Of a stretch of DNA of 64,000 nucleotides, positions 2,888-12,739 are shown one piece after another (the first letter of the stretch is position 1; every line of letters starts with the position of its first letter). A model generated the notes under the pieces. It was given only the letters and a program-made list of their open reading frames with translations, did not search any database and had not been told where the DNA came from. This DNA is from Slackia heliotrinireducens DSM 20476 (GTDB taxonomy: Bacteria; Actinomycetota; Coriobacteriia; Coriobacteriales; Eggerthellaceae). Location of the stretch: NCBI RefSeq assembly GCF_000023885.1, contig NC_013165.1:992001-1056000 (forward strand), in the 5' to 3' direction. Position numbers and translations under genes: made by a program.

Positions 2888-2912
2888 GGCCTGAAGGTCC
2901 ATATGGAAACGA

Positions 2913-2943
2913 AAAGGGAGGGGCTTCGGCTCCTCCCTTTCTT
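2913..2943 (+). terminator. Rho-independent terminator after nifJ
   Basis: AAAGGGAGG pairs with CCTCCCTTT, extended by three more pairs and closed by a TTCG tetraloop, followed by a T-rich stretch. It lies 26 bases after the nifJ stop and isolates nifJ from the convergent minus-strand RyR gene. Confidence 0.85.
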
Positions 2944-2992
2944 GTTCGCCCCGCTGTTCAGGGGCGGGGTGCACGATTCGTATCGCTTCGGG

Positions 2993-4522
2993 TTATCGGG
3001 TGATGCACAGGCCTCGGGAGGCGAGCAGGGTGGGAAGGTTGCGAAGCTGACGTCGGTTGCAGTCTCGGGCCCGCTCGGGCAGCGCCTCCCAGGGAACCAG
3101 GTAGGGCGACTGCTTGGCGGCTGTGTCCTTTGTCGGAGACAGTGTCCAGCCGGCGGCAATTCGCTCTGCAAGCCAGCGTCGGTGCTCCAGAACCGCCAGA
3201 CATTCCACCTCGCTGGGGGAGAGCCTGTCCACACGCTGGTCTGGGTAGCAGGTGCCGATGGGAGAGATTCGGTATCCCAGGATCTTCAACATGTCGGGAA
3301 TGCTCTGGATACGCTGGATGCCCGACATGCGCAGGTCGACGGGTTGGTCGTCGTAGGTTTTGAATTCGGGGGAGCCGCCCAGCTCCGTCTGGCCGGAAAG
3401 ATACACGTCGTAGGAGGACCGGGCCAAGTCTGTGATGATGTCCTCGTGGACGGTTCCGCCGTCCATCGTTAACAGGTCCACGGATTCGACGGCCAGGGGG
3501 CGGGCGACGTGCGGACCGTAGACGGCGCAGACCAGCGTGTTCCAGACGAGCTGCTCTTTGTAGATCAGCCACGGGGGCAGAACGGTTCCGTAGCCGTCGG
3601 CTTCATAATCGGGATTCATGGCGCGTTGGGCGCGAATGATTTGGAGCAGGTCGCCTACCGGCATGTCCTGCCAGCGGGATTCCATGTCGTCAGCCGAGAT
3701 TTCCCGCTCGTATCCGTCCAGGGCCTCGCGGAACGAGTCTACGAAATAGCCTCGGGCGGATTCTGCATACCCCACGCGTTTGAAGCAGGCGTCCAGCTCG
3801 GACACGACGAGCAGCATGATGTCGGCATTGTCGTACCAGCCGCCGGCTACCATGGGGATGCGGTCCTGCAGACACCACGCCGGCAGGATGTCGAAAAGGG
3901 CGTCCAGCGGATTTCCGCCTTCGAGGGTCTGGTAGATTCGGGCCTCGGCCTCCACGTCGGCAACCAATCGCACGATGTCCGCCGCCTGTTCGGCGGGCTT
4001 GTATCCGGCAATCTCCAATGCGCAGGTCCGAAACTCTGGAACGGGACCTTTCCCGCCGTTCTTCCCATCGGCGCCGCGGCGGTTGTTGACCGCGAAGGGT
4101 GGGCAGAAGCGTCCGAAAGTGGCAGTGACGTCCTCGGGGTCGAGGGTGTTCAGGCGCAGGGTGTGGCTGTTCCACACGGCGATGCTCTTCAGACAGGCAC
4201 GGGCGTCGCAGGCGTCGGGAAACGTCGAGACGATGCGATCCTCATAGGCCGCCAGCCAGTAATTCGCGTTGAACAGCATGCGGTCCACGGCGCTTTGGGT
4301 GCCCCTTGCAAGGCCTTGCCTGTCGTCGGATGCGACGGCTCCGTTGTCGGCGGAGGCGCCTTCGGTGGCGAAGACGTAGGCCTGATAGGCGGCGATGATG
4401 GTTTTCAGGACCTCGATGGGTTTAAGCGGGTTGCCGGCGGATGCACGTTTGCGCTCCTCGGCGCGAAGGGCCTCGCGGGCGGCGTCTGCAGCGGTTGGCG
4501 GCAGAGGCTTTCGTTTCGTCAT
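2993..4522 (-). CDS. RyR-domain protein, partner of upstream TIR gene
   Basis: A 509-residue soluble protein with no signal peptide or membrane segment. The C-terminal part, about residues 437-505, matches the ryanodine-receptor (RyR) repeat: an LAVLEHRRWLAERIAAGW core, then LVPWEALPERARDCNRRQLRNLP. The first 430 residues are not recognised. Bacterial RyR domains are, from memory, predicted ligand-sensing modules found in conflict systems and near NAD/nucleotide-processing proteins. A Shine-Dalgarno AAAGGAG sits 6 bases before the ATG. The gene lies 94 bases downstream of the TIR gene on the same strand, so co-transcription is likely, but the gap has its own promoter-like sequence and a copy of a shared 12-bp motif. 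The domain call is by eye; the function is unknown. Confidence 0.75.
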   Translation of the reverse strand: MTKRKPLPPTAADAAREALRAEERKRASAGNPLKPIEVLKTIIAAYQAYVFATEGASADNGAVASDDRQGLARGTQSAVDRMLFNANYWLAAYEDRIVSTFPDACDARACLKSIAVWNSHTLRLNTLDPEDVTATFGRFCPPFAVNNRRGADGKNGGKGPVPEFRTCALEIAGYKPAEQAADIVRLVADVEAEARIYQTLEGGNPLDALFDILPAWCLQDRIPMVAGGWYDNADIMLLVVSELDACFKRVGYAESARGYFVDSFREALDGYEREISADDMESRWQDMPVGDLLQIIRAQRAMNPDYEADGYGTVLPPWLIYKEQLVWNTLVCAVYGPHVARPLAVESVDLLTMDGGTVHEDIITDLARSSYDVYLSGQTELGGSPEFKTYDDQPVDLRMSGIQRIQSIPDMLKILGYRISPIGTCYPDQRVDRLSPSEVECLAVLEHRRWLAERIAAGWTLSPTKDTAAKQSPYLVPWEALPERARDCNRRQLRNLPTLLASRGLCITR

Positions 4523-4582
4523 CGTCGGCTCCTTTGGTCGGCTTGGTCTGCTTGCCTATGATACGCCTGTGCCAGGCCTTGC

Positions 4583-4594
4583 CATTGGGCAATG
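4583..4594. promoter_or_regulatory. Putative operator, copy 1 of CATTGGGCAATG
   Basis: A 12-bp interrupted palindrome with arms CATTG and CAATG and a 2-base centre, 61-72 bases upstream of the RyR start. On the minus strand it is followed 19 bases later by a -10-like TATCAT. The same 12 bases occur at 7331-7342 and, inverted, at 10830-10841. An operator role is inferred. Confidence 0.5.
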
Positions 4595-4616
4595 CGCGGG
4601 CCGTGGCGCGGACGCG

Positions 4617-7244
4617 TCATTTCGTCTGGGCCAGGATGCTGCAGGCCAACTCCACGAGCTGGTTGCGGCTGTAGTAGGGCATGGTGAAAACCCCGAGGGC
4701 GTCTTCGGCATATATTTCGGTTTCGTCGGCGGATACCGCTATGCCGCAGTAGATTTCGCTTTCGACGGTGAGCCGGCCGTCTTCGATGCGGAGGACATAG
4801 AGCGTGGGGAAGTCGTCTGACGCGTCGGCATCGGGGTTGTATGTGGAGGCGAACACGCGGGTTGCATCGCTTGAGAACCTTGCCGTATGCAGGGCCGGCA
4901 AAGTCTCTTCGCAGGTTGCCACGGCATTGCCTTGCGGGTCGAGCAGCATGCAGCACCCTGATTCGTCCTGCGCGAATACGCCTATGCCATCAGGGGATTC
5001 GACGGCGATCCGAGCTCTGTCGGGCATGGTGTCCAGAGCTGCATCTTGCGTAAGCTGCAGGGCTTCGGCGGCTACGGTCTGTGCGTCGTCTGCGCAGGGC
5101 GTTCTTTCGAGCACGTTCCATTGCAAGTCGGTGCGCCATACGGAGATGAGCGACGGGTTGTCAGCGGAACGGCCTATGTGCAGGAACGGCGTGCGGGTGC
5201 CGCCGACATAGCTCAGGCCGTTGCCCGCGCTGTCCAGACGAAGGCCTGAATCAAGGTCCATGATAGAGTCGAACCCTTCGGGGGCAAGAGGCTGGCGGAT
5301 GAGGGTTTTTCCGTCTGCCAACGTGATAAGCAACGCTCCGACAATCGGTTCCTGGTCGCTCCAGATGAAATCGACCTGCACTATGGGCGCTTCAAAGTCG
5401 GTTGTGTAAAGGACGGAGCCGTCGGTGCGATCGATGGCGACAAGCGAGGTGCCTGCTCCTGCAATCAGGGCACCCTCGCCTAGATTGGCGATGCCGTAAA
5501 CGCGAGGTATGCCGTAGTCGAGTGCCGTATCTCCCGACGTGCCGACGGTGCGCCCCGACGATTCGCCGTCGAACTGCCAGATCAGATTCATGTCGGCGTC
5601 GAAGGCCTGGATCGCGTAGGGCGTGGCAAGCGATCTGGCAAGCGCGTCTGCATCGTAGGAGGTCACAAAGCAGATGTCATCTGCAACAACAAGGGATGAC
5701 GCATTCGGATGGGCGAGGGCTGCGGCATGCATGCAGGTGTCGTCGGCGGCCGCCATGTCGATGTAAGCGACGGTATCGCCGGCTGCGACGAAAACGTCGG
5801 AGGCTAAGGTGCCGAAACCCATGAGCACAGGTTCGGTTCCGGAGGCGTGGTTCGCGCTGATGGTTGCAGAGGGGTCGTCAAGTCCCGGATTGGGAAGGGT
5901 TTTGGTCCCGATGCCGTGCGAAGAGGCCGTGTCTACGACGCCGACGTTCAGGTCCTCGCCGTCCAGCCCGACAAAGCCCAAGCTCTTTCCGTCCGCTGAG
6001 ACGGTCTGGCCGAAGGTTGCGACGTTCTCGACGTTCCACACGAGGTGCCCGGATGTCGTGTCAAAGCAGGCGAACACGCCGGGGTGCCCGGTGCCCATGC
6101 AATAGAGCACATCGCCCCAAGCGGCAAGGCGCAGCAGTTCGGGGGTCTGCTCGAAGGGCGTATCGCCGGGTAAGTCGCAGGTGGCGCGCAATGCACCGGT
6201 TGCTGCATCGTAGATGTTGATCTCGGCCCGGTCGTCGATGGTTGCAAACCAGGTGTATTCGGGATTGACGGTCCAGGACACAATAGGACGTTTATGCTCG
6301 AGCGTGTAGCAGGGCGACCACCACATGTCGGATTGAGGGTAGGCGCCGACAGCCTGCTCCAAGGCGCGTTGCGCTTCGGGGGTGAGGGCATCCGGGTCGT
6401 CGGAAACTGTGGCCAGGATGGCGTCGAGCGCCCCGTATCGGTCGCCGGAGGCGAGCAACACGTCGGCGTCTGCTGCCGCATGGCGCGACTGTTCAAGCCG
6501 GGTTTCGACCTGACTGGCTTCGATCTGGGCGTTCTTGGCGTGGGTGTAGAATCCGGTCGCCGTTGCGGCTATGGCGAAGGCGGCGACGATGCCTGCGACT
6601 CTGCGGATCTTTCGGACTCGTTCGCGCTGGCGCAGGTCGTCGAAGCCGCAGCCCACGATGCCTGCGATAAGTCGGAGGGCTTCCTGCCTGAAGGGCAGGT
6701 TCGTTGCGGGGCGGAAGTCGGCGGCCACATGGCTTGTTGCCCGAAGCCCGAACGACCCGTCGGCGTCTTTCGCCAGGATGTGGGACAGCGCCGGCGGAAT
6801 TCCTTCTTTGGAGGCACCGTCTGCCAACGCGAGGAATATGCGCTCGCGGCCGTGGTAGGTCGCGAATTCGACGACCTCGCGGTTCACCCATGCGCTTTCC
6901 GGAGTCTTAGGCGAACAGACGACGATGAGCGTCCGGGAGCGCCGCAGGGCGTTGGAAATGCGCGTCGGCAGCTCGCCTGAGGCGGGCAGTTCGTCCTGGT
7001 CGCGGAAGACGCGTCCGAGTTTGCGGCTGGCGGCGGGGGAGTTCACGCCGCGGGGCAACCGATAGGCCTCGATGGCGGATTGGATGCGTTTTGCCAGGTC
7101 GGTGTCGCGATCAACATGGCGGTAGCTGATGAACGCCACGTATTCGTACTCGTCGTAGGAAGGTGCGAAGGGCTGCTGAGCTCCGCAGTGCGGGCAGAAT
7201 GCGGCGTAATCCGCAATCTCGCTGCCGCAGGCGACGCATCCCAT
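4617..7244 (-). CDS. Zinc-ribbon/TIR/membrane/beta-propeller protein
   Basis: An 875-residue multidomain protein. Residues 1-20 form a zinc ribbon (C3, C6, C17, C20). About 34-190 is a TIR domain starting FISYRHVDRD, with FRDQDELPASGEL and a SAWVNRE segment whose Glu fits the catalytic Glu of NAD-cleaving TIR domains. A single hydrophobic helix lies near residues 213-235 behind a basic RVRKIRR stretch. The remaining ~600 residues look like repeated beta-propeller blades (WD40/PQQ-like). The TIR domain should be cytoplasmic; the propeller would then lie outside the membrane. The gene sits between an XRE regulator gene and the RyR gene on the same strand. Domains are clear; NADase activity and a role in defence or signalling are inferred. 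Confidence 0.85.
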   Translation of the reverse strand: MGCVACGSEIADYAAFCPHCGAQQPFAPSYDEYEYVAFISYRHVDRDTDLAKRIQSAIEAYRLPRGVNSPAASRKLGRVFRDQDELPASGELPTRISNALRRSRTLIVVCSPKTPESAWVNREVVEFATYHGRERIFLALADGASKEGIPPALSHILAKDADGSFGLRATSHVAADFRPATNLPFRQEALRLIAGIVGCGFDDLRQRERVRKIRRVAGIVAAFAIAATATGFYTHAKNAQIEASQVETRLEQSRHAAADADVLLASGDRYGALDAILATVSDDPDALTPEAQRALEQAVGAYPQSDMWWSPCYTLEHKRPIVSWTVNPEYTWFATIDDRAEINIYDAATGALRATCDLPGDTPFEQTPELLRLAAWGDVLYCMGTGHPGVFACFDTTSGHLVWNVENVATFGQTVSADGKSLGFVGLDGEDLNVGVVDTASSHGIGTKTLPNPGLDDPSATISANHASGTEPVLMGFGTLASDVFVAAGDTVAYIDMAAADDTCMHAAALAHPNASSLVVADDICFVTSYDADALARSLATPYAIQAFDADMNLIWQFDGESSGRTVGTSGDTALDYGIPRVYGIANLGEGALIAGAGTSLVAIDRTDGSVLYTTDFEAPIVQVDFIWSDQEPIVGALLITLADGKTLIRQPLAPEGFDSIMDLDSGLRLDSAGNGLSYVGGTRTPFLHIGRSADNPSLISVWRTDLQWNVLERTPCADDAQTVAAEALQLTQDAALDTMPDRARIAVESPDGIGVFAQDESGCCMLLDPQGNAVATCEETLPALHTARFSSDATRVFASTYNPDADASDDFPTLYVLRIEDGRLTVESEIYCGIAVSADETEIYAEDALGVFTMPYYSRNQLVELACSILAQTK

Positions 7245-7314
7245 GACCGTTTCCTTTCACTATTCGAACGAACTCATACTACCATGGGTGGCAAAACAGG
7301 TGGTGGCGAGCGAA

Positions 7315-7326
7315 GGGCGCGCGCCC
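7315..7326. repeat. GC palindrome in the TIR gene leader
   Basis: GGGCGCGCGCCC is a perfect 12-bp palindrome, 71-82 bases upstream of the TIR start and just downstream of the shared operator-like motif in the direction of transcription. It could form a short hairpin in the leader RNA or be a protein site. No function can be assigned. Confidence 0.35.
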
Positions 7327-7330
7327 CTCG

Positions 7331-7342
7331 CATTGGGCAATG
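7331..7342. promoter_or_regulatory. Putative operator, copy 2 of CATTGGGCAATG
   Basis: Identical to the motif at 4583-4594 and placed 87-98 bases upstream of the TIR start codon. The nearest -10-like sequence on the minus strand (TAGTAT, near 7280) is about 50 bases downstream, so the geometry differs from the other two copies. Confidence 0.5.
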
Positions 7343-7398
7343 GTACGGAATCGCAGGAGTTATAGTTCAAACAGAAGGATTGATTGCCGAATAAGAGG

Positions 7399-7629
7399 CT
7401 AGTAGTGGAACAGCTCTTCGAAGGCGACGTCCAATCCATCAGCGATGCGCATGAGCGTGCTTATGGTTGGATTTGCCGTGCCGGATTCGATTCGGTTAAG
7501 GGTGACTCGGTCGAGTTCGAGCACTAATGCCAGGCGGCGTTGGGACATGCCCTTTTCCTCACGGAGCTTGGCTATGCGCACTCCGAGCTTTCGTTTGGAT
7601 TCGATATGTTCGACAAATTTTTCGGTCAT
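7399..7629 (-). CDS. XRE-family helix-turn-helix regulator
   Basis: A 76-residue single-domain DNA-binding protein. A Cro/C1-type HTH covers about residues 17-71: LGVRIAKLREEKGMSQRRLA, then a recognition helix ending NRIESG and the typical ISTLMRIADGLDV. It lies 154 bases upstream of the TIR gene on the same strand and is the likely local regulator. Its promoter (-35 TTGATA at 7691-7696, -10 TATATC at 7667-7672, minus strand, 18-base spacer) overlaps an 18-bp dyad that recurs in front of the ankyrin cassette, which suggests autorepression. The target genes are inferred. Confidence 0.9.
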   Translation of the reverse strand: MTEKFVEHIESKRKLGVRIAKLREEKGMSQRRLALVLELDRVTLNRIESGTANPTISTLMRIADGLDVAFEELFHY

Positions 7630-7661
7630 ATGACAAGCCTACGCGCCGTGTTTGGTTTGAC

Positions 7662-7679
7662 GGTAGGATATAACCAACC
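7662..7679. promoter_or_regulatory. Dyad operator over the XRE promoter
   Basis: GGTAGG-N6-CCAACC overlaps the -10 of the XRE promoter. It matches the dyad at 7883-7900 in 15 of 18 positions. Binding here by the XRE protein would block its own promoter. The protein-site pairing is inferred. Confidence 0.55.
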
Positions 7680-7696
7680 GTTTCCACCAATATCAA
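7667..7696 (-). promoter_or_regulatory. Promoter of the XRE gene
   Basis: Minus-strand -35 TTGATA (7691-7696) and -10 TATATC (7667-7672) with an 18-base spacer, about 38 bases upstream of the XRE start codon. The rest of the roughly 300-base gap 7630-7931 holds a TTTGGC-N5-GCCAAA inverted repeat (7823-7839) and the second dyad; I see no gene in it. Confidence 0.55.
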
Positions 7697-7882
7697 AGAC
7701 CTCTCTGTAGGCGGAGCCGTGAAGGGCAAATGCGAATCACTGTGCCATGCTGAATCTAATCGTATTGTCTTGCCCCAATAGCAATCGATTTGATTCGGCA
7801 GAAACTAGCGACCTTTAATCAATTTGGCTTAATGCCAAAGGGGATGTCGCCTCCTTCGCGGTCTGCCTGATGTATCATGCAT

Positions 7883-7900
7883 GGTAGGATAAACCCTACC
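7883..7900. promoter_or_regulatory. Dyad operator before the ankyrin cassette
   Basis: GGTAGG-N6-CCTACC is a perfect 6-bp inverted repeat with a 6-base spacer, 32 bases upstream of the first ankyrin start codon. It is close in sequence to the dyad on the XRE promoter, so both may be bound by the same regulator. Confidence 0.6.
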
Positions 7901-7931
7901 AAACGGAGGAGAATGTAGGGAAGGTAGTTCG

Positions 7932-8678
7932 ATGTATTTCATCTATGGAGAGAAGGATTCAGCGACGGCCGATCTTTGTAGCAGGCTGTTTGCAGGGAGG
8001 TGTGATCGGTTTCAAATAGACGCATTTCTGCGTAGTGGGGCAGATCCAAATGGGCATGTGATGTATTCGCAAAGTGAAATGCCTGCATACTCGAAACAGA
8101 TAATCTCCCCTTTGGGTATCGCTTGTCTGATGGGGGATTATGAATGTGCTGCCGCTTTGATAGAACGAGGGGCTCGGTGCTGGGACTTCCAAGTGGGGTT
8201 GGTGGGCGAGGCGGCGAGAGGAGGAAACGCGCGTATTGTTGACCTGCTCGTGCGAAACGGCGCCAGCGTCGACGGAGAGAACGGCTCTTACCAGAACCCT
8301 CCTTTGGTCAGGCTGAGCTGCACGCCGCTTGATGATTGGAGGATGGCGGAATGTCTGCTAAAGCATGGTGCCTACCCTGACATTATGGCTCAAAACGGAG
8401 TATTCCCTTTGTATTGTGCCGCCCAGATAGGCAACGTTCAGATGATGAAGTCTCTACTGGAGTACGGTGCGCGAATCAACATGACCACGCCAAGGGGCAA
8501 TACTGCATTGATGAATGCATGCGATGAAGGAGAGACTCAGGCTGTGAAGCTTCTGTTGGACGAAGGCGCTGATGCCAGCCTGAGAAATGCCATGGGTAAG
8601 ACATGCATGGATTTTGCTCGTCAGAACGGTTATGGCTGGATTGTACAACTTCTAAATGATTACGGAGTGCGATGGTAG
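7932..8678 (+). CDS. Ankyrin-repeat protein 1
   Basis: 248 residues, no signal peptide or membrane segment. About five or six ankyrin repeats are visible, for example SPLGIACLMGDYECAAALIE, FPLYCAAQIGNVQMMKSLLE and NTALMNACDEGETQAVKLLL. Ankyrin repeats bind proteins and give no catalytic hint. It is the first gene of a four-gene plus-strand cassette; the gap to the next gene is 22 bases. Base composition looks less GC-rich than the housekeeping genes around the island, which fits acquisition by transfer. Cellular role unknown. Confidence 0.85.
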   Translation: MYFIYGEKDSATADLCSRLFAGRCDRFQIDAFLRSGADPNGHVMYSQSEMPAYSKQIISPLGIACLMGDYECAAALIERGARCWDFQVGLVGEAARGGNARIVDLLVRNGASVDGENGSYQNPPLVRLSCTPLDDWRMAECLLKHGAYPDIMAQNGVFPLYCAAQIGNVQMMKSLLEYGARINMTTPRGNTALMNACDEGETQAVKLLLDEGADASLRNAMGKTCMDFARQNGYGWIVQLLNDYGVRW

Positions 8679-8700
8679 TGTTACTGGAAAGGGGTTCTTC

Positions 8701-9489
8701 ATGGGAAGCGTAACGGGTGTTTATCCAAAAAGCCGGATGGATGATTACTCATGGGATGAACTGGCGCGAATCGCTAGGGTGATGTCTGCCGCTGGTGGCA
8801 AGTGGCGGGGAATCGAGGTTGCGAAAGAGTACAACTTGTGTACACCGAGCGGCTCGCTTAATGGTGCTCAGAAAAAGACCTTGAGGTTAAAAAACGGCCT
8901 GTGTACGGATGCCGTGATTATCGGTCTTATGCACGATAAACGTGCGTATTCTGACGACCTTGCAGGCATCTCCTTCCAGACCGTTAATTGCGTAACGTTT
9001 GTTCCCATGAACAGTTATGGAGGCAATAGGTACGGTTGGCAAGGGTCTGATTTGAGGCATTGGCTCAACTCTGAATTTCTACGTTTCCTGCCCGACGACT
9101 TATCAAGAAGTATCATCCCTGTCGAAAAACGGACCAACAACAAAGGGAAGACGAATGGTTCAAGTGATGTAACGGAAACGAATGATCAGATCTGGGTTCC
9201 GTCTCTTGTGGAGCTTGTAGGGCTGCTGGATAGGGACAGCTTTCTTGACCATGCCCGTTTTACTGCAGACATCTACAACGCAGAAGGAAAGCAATATGAG
9301 CTATACAAATACTACGATGTTGTCTTCGGGGGAGGCTGTAGCGAGATAAGCAAAGAATGGTGTTGGTGGGAACGGAGTTGCTTGCCGACGTACGACGATC
9401 TGTGGTGGGTTGTGAACAAGATGGGATTCGTCGACCGGTCGAGGGACCCTGCGTCAAATGGCGGCGTTGCTCCGTGTTTTTGTTTGTGA
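8701..9489 (+). CDS. DUF6273-type protein
   Basis: 262 residues. The ATG at 8701 is preferred over an in-frame ATG at 8656, which overlaps the previous gene, because GGAAAGGGG lies 6 bases before it. The core WQGSDLRHWLNSEFLRFLP, then DQIWVPSLVELVGL and a C-terminal CWWERSCLPTYDDLWWVV with a final GGVAPCFCL follow the pattern I know from DUF6273 proteins. These end like formylglycine-enzyme/C-type-lectin folds (WW-R-S...G-V-P). The domain has no known reaction. Its place between ankyrin genes suggests the four products act together. Confidence 0.7.
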   Translation: MGSVTGVYPKSRMDDYSWDELARIARVMSAAGGKWRGIEVAKEYNLCTPSGSLNGAQKKTLRLKNGLCTDAVIIGLMHDKRAYSDDLAGISFQTVNCVTFVPMNSYGGNRYGWQGSDLRHWLNSEFLRFLPDDLSRSIIPVEKRTNNKGKTNGSSDVTETNDQIWVPSLVELVGLLDRDSFLDHARFTADIYNAEGKQYELYKYYDVVFGGGCSEISKEWCWWERSCLPTYDDLWWVVNKMGFVDRSRDPASNGGVAPCFCL

Positions 9490-9511
9490 TGCAGATAGGA
9501 GGACAGTGGAG

Positions 9512-9937
9512 ATGAGACCCGAGCATCGATTCGAATTCGACACGATCATGTGTCTGCAGCATGGTCTGTACGATGAATTTGAGAGCCGTCTTCAATATTG
9601 CAAGCAAGGGGTGTTCTGCAATTTCGACCAGACATTCGAAAACGACCTTGATGGTTTGAACTTCATTACATGTGCGGCCGAGATTAACAGCTGTGAAGGC
9701 ATTCTCCGCTTGGTTAAATATGGGGTGGATGTGGATATGCCTAACATCTATGGGCAGACCCCGTTGTTTGTGGCTTTGGAATGCGGGCATATTGAGGCGG
9801 CCGAACTGCTTATATCGTTGGGAGCCGACCTTCGCCATAAAGATGTTGATGGATACGGTGTTGGAGAGCATTTGGTGATGGGGTTCAAACGAAATCCCAG
9901 CATGCGCCAATGGATCGATGACCTGATGGCGAATTGA
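9512..9937 (+). CDS. Ankyrin-repeat protein 2 (small)
   Basis: 141 residues with two to three ankyrin repeats (LNFITCAAEINSCEGILRLV and QTPLFVALECGHIEAAELLI). The start at 9512 is chosen because AGGAGG lies 9 bases upstream; the in-frame ATG at 9458 would overlap the DUF6273 gene and has no ribosome site. The gap to the preceding stop is 22 bases, so it belongs to the same operon. Function unknown. Confidence 0.8.
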   Translation: MRPEHRFEFDTIMCLQHGLYDEFESRLQYCKQGVFCNFDQTFENDLDGLNFITCAAEINSCEGILRLVKYGVDVDMPNIYGQTPLFVALECGHIEAAELLISLGADLRHKDVDGYGVGEHLVMGFKRNPSMRQWIDDLMAN

Positions 9938-10003
9938 TTATTAATAATTCGGCAGTGACAAATCGAGCATGGTGCCGAATGCATTCAACCGTTTGGAGGG
10001 ACG

Positions 10004-10780
10004 ATGATTGTCAACAGCGATATTGTGAGGCTTGGGTTTGCCGATTTCGATCGGCGGCAATTCATTATTGATGACATAAATAGAACCAGCGAAGATCTGA
10101 AAGCTTCAGCATACATGAAAGGAGAGCTCGACTATGATGAGTGGAATCCTTTTATGGCGGAAGACCCGTCTTACCGATATGCGCCGATAACGGAGTTCGA
10201 CAGACGGGTCATCAAGAACTACTACCTGCTCTTCAGTGCGCTGAACTTTGATTCCCTGCATGCTGAGAAGGCGTTGAGCTTAGGGGCCGACCCCAATGTG
10301 CAGTGCCTTGTTGGAGGAAGGCGCTACTATCCACTCATAGCAGCTGCCACTTCCGGCGATTCTGAAACGGTCAAGGTTCTTGTGGAGAACGGTGCCGACG
10401 TGAATATCCAACAGTTAAACGGCGAATGCGCTGTGGCCTTGGCATCTTCGTTCGATCATTACGACATGGCGAGGTACCTTCTGGAGCATGGCGCTAACCC
10501 CAATTTGGAAGCTCGAGGAGGAATAACCGCTCTTGCGGTTGCCGAAAACTCCAACATGGTAAAGCTGCTTTTGGCTTATGGCGCCGACCCCAACATTCCT
10601 GATTCGGATGGCGATTTGCCCATAGTCGCAAGAATCGACAATGACGATTTCTTATCGGCGGGTGTTCTGGTGCAAGCAGGAACAGATTTAGATTGGAAAA
10701 ACCACATGGGAGAGAGCGCTCGTGAGCGAGCCATCCGCGTTGGTAGTGATCTCATGCGTCGTGTAATGGGTTGTGATTAG
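10004..10780 (+). CDS. Ankyrin-repeat protein 3
   Basis: 258 residues. The first ~85 residues are not repeat-like; about four or five ankyrin repeats follow (YPLIAAATSGDSETVKVLVE, CAVALASSFDHYDMARYLLE, TALAVAENSNMVKLLLAYG). GGAGGG lies just before the ATG. It is the last gene of the ankyrin cassette, 66 bases after the previous stop. No clear terminator is visible after it. Function unknown. Confidence 0.85.
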   Translation: MIVNSDIVRLGFADFDRRQFIIDDINRTSEDLKASAYMKGELDYDEWNPFMAEDPSYRYAPITEFDRRVIKNYYLLFSALNFDSLHAEKALSLGADPNVQCLVGGRRYYPLIAAATSGDSETVKVLVENGADVNIQQLNGECAVALASSFDHYDMARYLLEHGANPNLEARGGITALAVAENSNMVKLLLAYGADPNIPDSDGDLPIVARIDNDDFLSAGVLVQAGTDLDWKNHMGESARERAIRVGSDLMRRVMGCD

Positions 10781-10829
10781 GCATAAAACTGTCCTGCTGG
10801 CTTAGGAGGGGGCGAAAGGCTACCCCGGT

Positions 10830-10841
10830 CATTGCCCAATG
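10830..10841. promoter_or_regulatory. Putative operator, copy 3 (inverted)
   Basis: CATTGCCCAATG is the exact reverse complement of the motif at 4583 and 7331, so relative to its downstream gene it has the same orientation as the other two. It lies 66-77 bases before the small Gly/Ser gene and 18 bases before a -10-like TATATT. Confidence 0.5.
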
Positions 10842-10906
10842 GGTCGGCAGCATTGGCCGTATATTCTAATCGTCCCAGATGAGACCACAACCGAGGGGAG
10901 GACACG

Positions 10907-11104
10907 ATGGCAAGGCGAGGTTATTCCGGCGGAAGCGGACGCAGCGGCTACAGCGGAGGCGGCTTCACGAACTCCCGCACGGGTTCGTATGTGTCGTCGG
11001 CCCGGGCGCACCAGCACGTCGGCCAGAGCTTCGGCGGATACACGAAAGCAAAAAGCTCGTCGACAGGCAACTACTATATGGCGCCGAGCAAAGGCAAAAA
11101 GTAG
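10907..11104 (+). CDS. Small basic Gly/Ser/Tyr-rich protein
   Basis: A 65-residue protein dominated by Gly, Ser, Arg, Lys and Tyr (MARRGYSGGSGRSGYSGG start, PSKGKK end). It has no hydrophobic segment or recognisable domain and is probably disordered. Translation is well supported: GAGGGGAGGA precedes the ATG by a few bases, a -10-like TATATT and the shared 12-bp motif lie upstream, and a hairpin follows the stop. Regulation in common with the TIR and RyR genes is inferred from the motif. It could bind nucleic acid, but nothing shows this directly. Confidence 0.6.
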   Translation: MARRGYSGGSGRSGYSGGGFTNSRTGSYVSSARAHQHVGQSFGGYTKAKSSSTGNYYMAPSKGKK

Positions 11105-11122
11105 CGAATTCGAACGACGCGG

Positions 11123-11152
11123 GCCCCGTTTGCGCAAGCAGGCGGGGCTTCG
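11123..11152 (+). terminator. Hairpin after small Gly/Ser gene
   Basis: GCCCCG pairs with CGGGGC across a 14-base loop, followed by TTCGTC. The T-tract is weak, so this is a possible rather than certain terminator. Confidence 0.45.
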
Positions 11153-11349
11153 TCATCTAGAGTTCGCATAGGCCCAGGGCTCAGGGGGACAAACGGAGGC
11201 TAGCATCGGGCTTTGCCGCCGTTCGTTTCCGAGCAGTCCAAATCGGGTGCCTGCGCCTGGGCTGGGCGGTGGGACAGCAGGCGCGTGAGCAGATGCCGAG
11301 TTTTTACTGGTGGGTCATATGTGGCGCAGAAAGCAATGCGGTCGGCTGG

Positions 11350-11355
11350 TATGAT
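11350..11355 (+). promoter_or_regulatory. Extended -10 promoter of the BspA-like gene
   Basis: TGG followed by TATGAT fits an extended -10 element. Transcription would start near 11362, which favours translation from the ATG at 11407 rather than the GTG at 11269. The rest of the 11105-11406 gap shows only the hairpin at 11123. Confidence 0.5.
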
Positions 11356-11406
11356 CGGGCGCCGTCTTTCGGGGGCGGTACGGCGAAAGCAGTTTGGGAG
11401 GTGGAT

Positions 11407-12651
11407 ATGGAACGTGCGCATGAGGCATCTTCGACGGTCTGGGCATTCGATATGAACGGAGAAGGTGCCGAAGAGGAGATTCATTATAGGATAGACGGCG
11501 GGATTCTCTATATTGGCGGGCAGGATATGGCAGGATCCCAAGTTGCGACGGCCAAAGAGCTGGGCGGGCGGCCTGTCGGTATGCCGTGGTGCTATAACAA
11601 ACGTATTGTCGAGGCGTGCATCGTCCAGCCAATTTCTCCCGTCGGGCGTTTCGATTTCGCAGGCATGTCCAAGCTTCGGGCCATCCATGGTTTGGAGCTG
11701 CTGGACACGTCCCGCATTACCGATATGGCCGGCATGTTCTCGGACTGCGAATCGCTCGCCGCCTTGGATCTGACGCGCTTCGATACATACAATGTTACAA
11801 ACATGATGCATATGTTCAGCGGTTGCGAATCCCTCGAATCACTGGATTTGACGTCGTTCAACACTGCCCGCGTCACGAATATGCAGTCCATGTTCGAAAA
11901 CTGCGTCTCGCTCAGGTCCGTCGACCTCTCGACTTTCGATACCTTTGCCGTAACAACCATGGAAAGCATGTTCGCAGGGTGCGAATCAGTCGGGGCATTG
12001 GACCTTTCATCCTTCGACACCACCCGCGTTTCCACTATGAAATACATGTTCAGCCGTTGTTCGCGGTTGGCTTCCGTCGATCTGGCGTCATTCGACACGT
12101 CCGTCGTGACGGATATGCAAGGCATGTTCGAGGAGTGCTCGTCGCTTACATCCCTCGACCTCTCGTCTTTCGACGTCTCCCGGGTGAAGGATCTGTCTTA
12201 CATGTTCGGCCTGTGTACGTCGCTCGAATCCGTCGACCTGCGCGCCTTTGTCACATCGGCGGCCGAAAGCATGCTGGGAATGTTCCTCGGCTGCTATTCC
12301 CTTACATCCCTCGACCTGTCCTCTTTCGACACGTCTCGAGTCACATCCATGTGGTGCATGTTCCTTGGCTGCTTGTCCCTCCGGTCCGTGGACGTGTCGT
12401 CGTTCGACACGGCTTGTGTGAGCGACATGGCGATGATGTTCCAAAACTGCCTGGAGCTTGAGTCTTTGGACCTCTCGTCGTTCGACACAACCCAGGTCAC
12501 CAGGATGGTCGGCATGTTTATGGTGTGCAGGTCGCTTGCGTCTTTGGATGTGTCGTCCTTCGACGTTTCCAACGTTGCCGATATGTCCTACATGTTCTCC
12601 CATTGCGACTCTCTCGATTTCGAGCAGCTGCCGCAATGGGCGCGCCCGTAG
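11407..12651 (+). CDS. BspA-like leucine-rich-repeat protein without signal peptide
   Basis: 414 residues from the ATG at 11407, which has GGGAGG 5 bases upstream; an in-frame GTG at 11269 has no ribosome site. Twelve tandem 26-residue repeats of the type MFxxCxSLxxLDLSSFDTxxVTxM (DUF285/BspA class) fill residues ~110-400; at DNA level the period is 78 bases. BspA-type proteins are usually surface adhesins or lipoproteins, but no signal peptide, lipobox or sorting signal is visible, so this copy may stay inside the cell. The short N-terminal domain is not recognised. Confidence 0.8.
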   Translation: MERAHEASSTVWAFDMNGEGAEEEIHYRIDGGILYIGGQDMAGSQVATAKELGGRPVGMPWCYNKRIVEACIVQPISPVGRFDFAGMSKLRAIHGLELLDTSRITDMAGMFSDCESLAALDLTRFDTYNVTNMMHMFSGCESLESLDLTSFNTARVTNMQSMFENCVSLRSVDLSTFDTFAVTTMESMFAGCESVGALDLSSFDTTRVSTMKYMFSRCSRLASVDLASFDTSVVTDMQGMFEECSSLTSLDLSSFDVSRVKDLSYMFGLCTSLESVDLRAFVTSAAESMLGMFLGCYSLTSLDLSSFDTSRVTSMWCMFLGCLSLRSVDVSSFDTACVSDMAMMFQNCLELESLDLSSFDTTQVTRMVGMFMVCRSLASLDVSSFDVSNVADMSYMFSHCDSLDFEQLPQWARP

Positions 12652-12687
12652 GCCTCGGGACGGTAGACGTTTTGCGTGCAGAAAGAA

Positions 12688-12714
12688 AGCGCCACCGGCG
12701 GATCCGATGGCGCT
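12688..12714. terminator. Bidirectional terminator between convergent genes
   Basis: AGCGCCA pairs with TGGCGCT, flanked by A-rich sequence on the left and TTCTC on the right. It can serve both the BspA-like gene and the convergent aminotransferase gene. Confidence 0.6.
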
Positions 12715-12739
12715 TCTCATTCGTGTGGTGCGGCGGTGC

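Follow-up and report, generated by a model that had tools for sequence, protein, structure and literature searches.

A membrane TIR-propeller protein beside a tandem RyR-domain protein in Slackia heliotrinireducens: a candidate TIR-messenger circuit with a new reader domain

Animal Toll-like receptors have a sensor outside the cell, a single membrane helix and a TIR domain in the cytosol, and the sensing of cyclic ADP-ribose by animal ryanodine receptors is a long-open question. In bacterial Thoeris, a TIR protein with a catalytic Glu (ThsB) is paired with a ThsA effector of the SIR2-SLOG or Macro-TM type. According to a 2026 preprint, phage RyR proteins bind or cleave 2'/3'cADPR, the TIR-made Thoeris signals (PMC13232231). 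The phage enzyme RyDEP (PDB 35TM) is described there as a glycosidase whose D117 protonates the leaving group, two tested relatives act as sponges, and 2 of 8 phage homologues showed no binding; studies of cyclic ADP-ribose sensing by RyR domains are called for (PMC13232231). RyR domains were common in phages in our own search, with 139 records matching at E 0.01.

We analyzed a 64,000-nucleotide stretch of the chromosome of Slackia heliotrinireducens DSM 20476, a gut and rumen bacterium (NC_013165.1, positions 992,001 to 1,056,000; hereafter the window, to which all coordinates refer). It contains a TIR gene directly beside a RyR gene. We read the two as a Thoeris-like circuit in which two proteins communicate by a nucleotide messenger and RyR serves as a new reader domain, and place the probability of this reading at roughly 0.6, drawing on the observed anatomy, folds, recurrence, motif and island.

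The pair resembles Thoeris in that a TIR with a ThsB_TIR Pfam match adjoins a gene for a domain with relatives known to bind ADPR-type signals, and the TIR with a catalytic Glu that characterizes ThsB appears, from its motif, to be present. It differs from Thoeris in that the TIR belongs to a membrane protein with a predicted outside propeller and the predicted reader is RyR instead of SLOG or Macro. Pfam gave no match to a ThsA effector, SIR2-SLOG or Macro-TM, in the three genes and five island neighbours (eight island proteins, the short ORF 10839-11171 being outside the scan), and the RyR protein had no PADLOC match. No TIR-RyR system was found among the literature matches listed. By term search, the available text of PMC13232231 held no mention of RyR effectors in host TIR operons, and RyR terms were absent from the available text of PMC9503650, PMC7824862 and PMC7159879. 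The pair has possibly been described elsewhere already; we class it as a new form of TIR-messenger signalling.

The locus and its accessory island

The three minus-strand genes proposed by the first-pass annotation, a Cro/C1-type regulator, a TIR protein and a RyR protein, were recovered as open reading frames at the same positions (Table 1). The gap between the RyR and TIR genes is 94 bp and has a promoter-like site inside. Three such sites were found against a shuffle mean of 1.6, sites of this kind being about equally common in shuffles, and both the promoter and the terminator scans gave results near shuffle expectation.

Table 1. Features of the locus in window coordinates.
Feature	Position	Strand	Description	Basis
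N-domain/RyR protein gene	2993..4522	-	509 aa, soluble	ORF, Pfam
Tandem RyR (R12-like) domain	2996..3487	-	aa 346-509	fold superposition
N-domain	3494..4426	-	aa 33-343, all-helical	predicted structure
Zinc ribbon-TIR-TM-propeller protein gene	4617..7244	-	875 aa	ORF, Pfam
Beta-propeller	5124..6335	-	aa 304-707, predicted extracytoplasmic	fold search of model
Single membrane-spanning segment	6543..6608	-	aa 213-234, after Arg/Lys-rich stretch	hydropathy
TIR domain	6711..7151	-	aa 32-178	profile matches
W119-x-x-x-E123	6876..6890	-	catalytic-Glu motif	alignment of homologues and Roq1
Zinc ribbon	7179..7238	-	aa 3-22; lost in several homologues	Pfam, alignment
XRE/Cro-C1 regulator gene	7399..7629	-	76 aa; optional neighbour	HTH_3 Pfam match
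Accessory island	2888..12739		9.85 kb	flank-gene spacing in genus relatives

The genes lie in a 9.85-kb island with TIR, RyR, XRE, ankyrin, DUF6273 and DUF285 genes (Pfam), flanked by two conserved genes that we named by eye as an oxidoreductase and an aminotransferase. The stretch is most likely an accessory insertion, since the flanking genes are separated by 102-707 bp in 6 of 11 genus relatives; in the remaining relatives the flanks lay on separate contigs (three) or the aminotransferase was not found (two). Of 12 genomes in the genus, 2 had a RyR match. The longest direct repeat found at the island borders is an 11-base match, which we took as chance.

The same island carries, on the opposite strand, genes for ankyrin-repeat proteins and a DUF6273 protein (window 7932-10780), over which GC content is lower (0.50 at 8001-10000); these are possibly further conflict genes. 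A DUF285/BspA-type repeat protein lies at the island edge (window 11269-12651).

The first-pass annotation had grouped all three genes as one module. The TIR and RyR members stood, and the XRE member did not. The XRE protein is a clear HTH_3 protein (58.6 bits against a cut-off of 23), but a close homologue, defined by membership of one BLAST cluster, was present in the window and two relatives among the stretches compared, and an XRE-profile match was found in 5 of the 17 named loci of the RyR protein's family. The XRE gene is an optional neighbour.

Domain make-up of the two proteins

Zinc ribbon, TIR, membrane segment and propeller, the make-up first proposed for the larger protein, were each borne out by Pfam, hydropathy or fold, the outside position of the propeller being predicted. 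TIR_2 matched at 35.0 bits (cut-off 28), ThsB_TIR at 30.5 (cut-off 21.2) and Zn_Ribbon_1 at 25.1 (cut-off 25), while PQQ_2, at 27.4 bits, fell just below its cut-off of 27.6. With PADLOC the best match was the SAVED_TIR model (E 1.8e-7), and ThsB matched only at E 0.0015. The TIR call rests on these profiles because the propeller filled the fold-search list: aa ~304-707 of the model gave Z ~26-29 to ODA16, Fbw7, BamB and others. The model itself is of moderate confidence (pLDDT 70), and much of it after ~aa 708 is unreliable.

The W-x-x-x-E region singled out in the first reading is strongly conserved. W119 and E123 were invariant in 14 of 14 close homologues, and all 21 TIRs aligned from RyR loci kept the W and E of the motif. 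The two window residues align with W82 and E86 of plant Roq1, of which E86 is the catalytic residue; E123 is a putative catalytic Glu.

A single hydrophobic segment follows an Arg/Lys-rich stretch in all 14 aligned TIR proteins and is least pronounced in the window protein (Kyte-Doolittle 1.65). By the positive-inside rule the propeller is predicted to lie outside and the TIR domain in the cytosol. Hydropathy and the propeller fold together give the plan of a transmembrane TIR receptor (TIR, one membrane segment, outside sensor) with predicted sidedness, and we predict that the protein acts as both transmembrane receptor and signal synthase. Like the Toll-like receptors, it would have an outside sensor, one helix and a cytosolic TIR, but its TIR is N-terminal, its sensor is a propeller and the enzymatic Glu is kept. 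We found no evidence of a relation by descent between the two.

The RyR protein matched PF02026 at E 3.6e-10 (40.4 bits against a curated cut-off of 27.4), and phmmer against PDB sequences matched it to RyR1 R12 at E 7.4e-14. In an AlphaFold2 model built from 17 sequences (mean pLDDT 84.6), aa 346-509 superposed on human RyR3 R12 with Z 13.7 and rmsd 3.3 over 150 aligned residues at 26% identity. All three results agree with the first-pass RyR call, although that call covered only part of the protein; about two thirds of it (aa 1-345) is, in the model, mostly a separate all-helical domain, here termed the N-domain. The superposition takes in the entire tandem domain, yet, unlike the animal ryanodine receptor, the window protein is soluble and has no channel; its maximum KD19 is 1.13, with no membrane segment. 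Some bacterial RyR relatives have TrkA_N or hydrophobic segments. The RyR profile detected a degenerate first repeat in several relatives but gave no match to that repeat in the window protein.

Four residues of the second repeat, H447, W450, S472 and N489, may bear on ligand handling. Across 17 homologues the first three do not vary, and N489 is conserved in at least 90%. Window residues 447-482 matched residues 76-111 of 35TM by phmmer at equal length and at a weak E of 0.22, so that H447, W450 and S472 map to RyDEP H75, W78 and H100 (the construct has one extra residue at its start). N489 falls at the place of D117 by spacing, with which the RyR profile alignment agrees; the mapping as a whole is drawn from matches of equal length and from spacing rather than from a printed 35TM alignment. 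Gordonia phage DalanDe gp57 matched 35TM at E 1.1e-13 and has H, W, H and D at matching spacings.

The window RyR domain shares with the phage anti-Thoeris RyDEP family the RyR/R12 fold and the ligand-pocket His and Trp (PMC13232231). RyDEP is a homodimer that opposes a TIR system, whereas the window RyR is a tandem within one chain, chromosomal and fused to another domain, and it sits with a TIR gene (PMC13232231). Of the glycosidase dyad H75 and D117, only the His appears to be kept, Asn occupying the place of the catalytic Asp. We infer from this substitution that the window domain binds its signal without cleaving it. With Ser at the position of phage H100, its ligand or affinity may differ from that of RyDEP. 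The first-pass annotation had described RyR domains as predicted sensors of nucleotide-derived ligands, and the phage RyR proteins now offer a biochemical precedent by analogy (PMC13232231).

The N-domain had no match in Pfam, PADLOC or NCBIfam, and its sole PHROGs match (E 0.2) covered the first residues. Its profile drew 21 matches from PDB sequences, the best being apolipoprotein E at E 0.12, and no relative was found among them; a fold search with the whole RyR-protein model gave low-Z partial helix matches for this part. The domain occurred at 20 places in 18 of the 396 genomes of the class. It was fused to RyR at 13 of these and shared a locus with a kinase-like RyR gene at 6; the remaining place (G394) had no RyR match. 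Four more partial matches lay within retrieved loci. In some of the kinase-like loci it forms a separate protein, and of six such proteins scanned FHA scored above the Pfam cut-off in 3, just below it in 1 and not at all in 2. These arrangements suggest that the N-domain is an output, which RyR may switch directly in the window family and perhaps via phosphorylation elsewhere.

Recurrence and modularity of the pair

PF02026 matched 47 places in 43 of the 396 class genomes and had no match in 14 control genomes. In a direct scan, a TIR gene lay within 10 kb of 26 of the 47 RyR places, namely in the window and in 25 of 40 further regions (41 places), with five of the 47 places outside the scan; one of these five, in genome G082, lies on a 3.1-kb contig with a propeller piece. 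Among the matches listed, at least 25 RyR places had a TIR gene at this distance. For the other 21 of 47 no TIR was found within 10 kb, a figure that includes the five places not scanned, one of them on the 3.1-kb contig, and some at contig ends. In 14 genomes from outside the class there were 16 RyR places, 8 of which had a TIR gene within 10 kb, and the recurrent neighbourhood that the first reading called for is thus found both inside and outside the class.

Random placement would put 0.64 RyR places beside a TIR, with a maximum of 6 in 1e6 draws, and a TIR_2 match was present in 34 of 43 RyR genomes versus 53 of 353 others (Fisher p 1.4e-17), statistics that are too generous because genomes are related and islands cluster. 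Gene order, overlaps and correlated divergence point the same way, and the pairing of TIR with RyR exceeds chance. TIR and RyR distances correlated at r 0.82 (n=19; 0 of 20,000 permutations as high) and, across 11 N-domain loci, at r 0.80 (40 of 20,000 as high). The correlation may in part be shared ancestry, and the co-location may in part be clustering of accessory genes.

The N-domain is fused to RyR in 17 named loci, from relatives of Adlercreutzia, Parvibacter and Enterorhabdus, other Eggerthellaceae, Coriobacteriia MAGs and one uncultured bacterium. A TIR gene stands beside it in 13 of them, one interrupted (L105), and gene order is similar in most. In L094, L100 and L103 a propeller piece lies at or near the contig edge; in L097 an XRE gene precedes the one for RyR, and the retrieved stretch has no TIR gene. 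The interrupted locus, from Adlercreutzia caecimuris B7, has a transposase-like insertion that splits the TIR-propeller gene (L105:6559-9844) and leaves the neighbouring RyR gene open, a natural TIR loss. The 2.2-Mb genome G082 has seven TIR_2 matches, five of which are among the matches listed, each on another contig.

RyR partners vary. Beside the N-domain they include kinase-like, TrkA_N, AAA and RelA_SpoT/LSDAT domains, and in these latter four types RyR is at the C-terminal end; the kinase-like label denotes an HRD-type motif, with Pfam matches below cut-offs in one of two such proteins scanned. Outputs that vary beside a kept TIR and RyR are as expected if RyR is a signal-reading module. 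The RyR proteins from L058 and L059 were labelled HD-like by eye; Pfam matched only RyR in the L059 protein.

Several of these genes are in close contact. Within the class, L056 has a small standalone RyR gene that overlaps the neighbouring gene for a TIR protein. Outside the class, the longest ORFs show overlaps at two loci, in L112 between a TIR gene and one encoding a TrkA_N-RyR protein, and in L116 between a TIR gene and a small standalone RyR gene. In L113 the gene for a TIR-PknH_C protein is abutted by a RyR gene whose product has several hydrophobic segments. Read by eye from its sequence, the L116 RyR protein retains H, W, H and D at the four corresponding positions. Its TIR (L116:7209-9452) has no hydrophobic segment adjoining and is fused to a phosphorylase-superfamily match below the Pfam cut-off. 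The TIR proteins outside the class have PknH_C, or PKD and PD40, as candidate sensors behind a hydrophobic segment, and by these other sensors the sensor-membrane-TIR plan seems general; in L113 the charges around the segment leave its sidedness unsettled.

No relative of the N-domain-RyR family was found in the viral contigs searched, and the plasmid search gave one RyR-domain match. Neighbour genes, scanned with PADLOC and Pfam in 12 loci alone, included AbiE, HipA, RhuM and a methylase here and there among the 25 commonest families (112 of 121 genes, the nine dropped being short ORFs, an XRE gene and interrupted L080 pieces).

A proposed circuit and its alternatives

In the circuit that we propose, the propeller of the single-pass membrane protein would sense something in or outside the envelope and thereby activate the cytosolic TIR domain. 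The TIR would then convert NAD+ into a messenger derived from ADP-ribose, with a cADPR isomer as the likeliest candidate, as its W-x-x-x-E motif and its matches to TIR families suggest. The tandem RyR domain of the soluble partner would bind this messenger, as phage RyR proteins are described to bind 2'/3'cADPR (PMC13232231), and binding would switch the helical N-domain, the putative output. With Asn in place of the leaving-group Asp, the window RyR would hold the signal instead of destroying it. An anti-phage defence role for the pair is plausible, and the sensor domains fit envelope signalling equally.

Such signalling could also be non-immune, an envelope or environmental relay in which TIR proteins are the counterpart of receptor kinases, with which some of them share sensor domains. 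We consider this unlikely. PknH_C (named extracellular by Pfam), PKD/PD40 and the BamB-like propeller all occur behind a hydrophobic segment in TIR proteins beside RyR, as a relay would have them, but the patchiness of RyR (43 of 396 class genomes, 2 of 12 in the genus), the accessory island and the transposase-like insertion in the A. caecimuris TIR gene fit conflict genes better, and the signalling mechanism would in any case be unchanged.

We judge it improbable that the RyR protein is instead an off-switch that degrades or soaks up the TIR signal in the manner of phage RyDEP, the TIR itself being the effector. RyDEP is a glycosidase with sponge relatives (PMC13232231), and the small standalone RyR genes overlapping TIR genes in L116 and L056, together with the H, W, H and D retained in L116, suit that role. 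In the window family, however, Asn replaces the catalytic Asp and Ser replaces H100, and its RyR is fused to a large conserved domain, as are others, which an off-switch would not need. Standalone RyR genes may still be off-switches where H, W, H and D are kept, as in L116, and both roles could exist. That TIR and RyR are unrelated accessory genes hitch-hiking in shared islands is very improbable, for although both families are patchy and 21 of 47 RyR places had no nearby TIR found, the overlapping and abutting genes, the similar gene order in most N-domain loci, the correlated divergence and the recurrence outside the class speak against it.

If the messenger circuit is correct, TIR signalling would gain a new class of signal reader, and the RyR domains of phages might be explained as a host reader stolen or mimicked. 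The circuit would also provide both a bacterial receptor of Toll-like build that retains the enzymatic residue and a simple bacterial system for testing RyR sensing of cyclic ADP-ribose. More tentatively, and with doubt prevailing, the pair may belong to a general second-messenger architecture of Actinomycetota, with transmembrane TIR receptors, exchangeable sensors, cADPR-type signals, RyR readers and kinase-like, TrkA_N/channel-like or helical outputs, which would be a bacterial counterpart, and possibly the ancestor, of the cADPR-ryanodine receptor axis disputed in animals.

Three further variants were observed among the RyR loci. In L077, L078 and L079 the gene beside the kinase-like RyR gene encodes a member of a single protein cluster, and the TIR gene is 2.7-5.6 kb off; the L077 member, the sole one scanned, is PP2C-like by Pfam, and the arrangement is possibly a phospho-relay variant. 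In L066 the gene for a 2,286-residue protein with AAA matches (L066:10272-17129) comes after the N-domain/FHA and kinase-like RyR genes. A single protein in L075 (L075:9912-12494) combines RelA_SpoT, LSDAT (SLOG) and RyR, a nucleotide-synthetase-like domain with two candidate nucleotide sensors.
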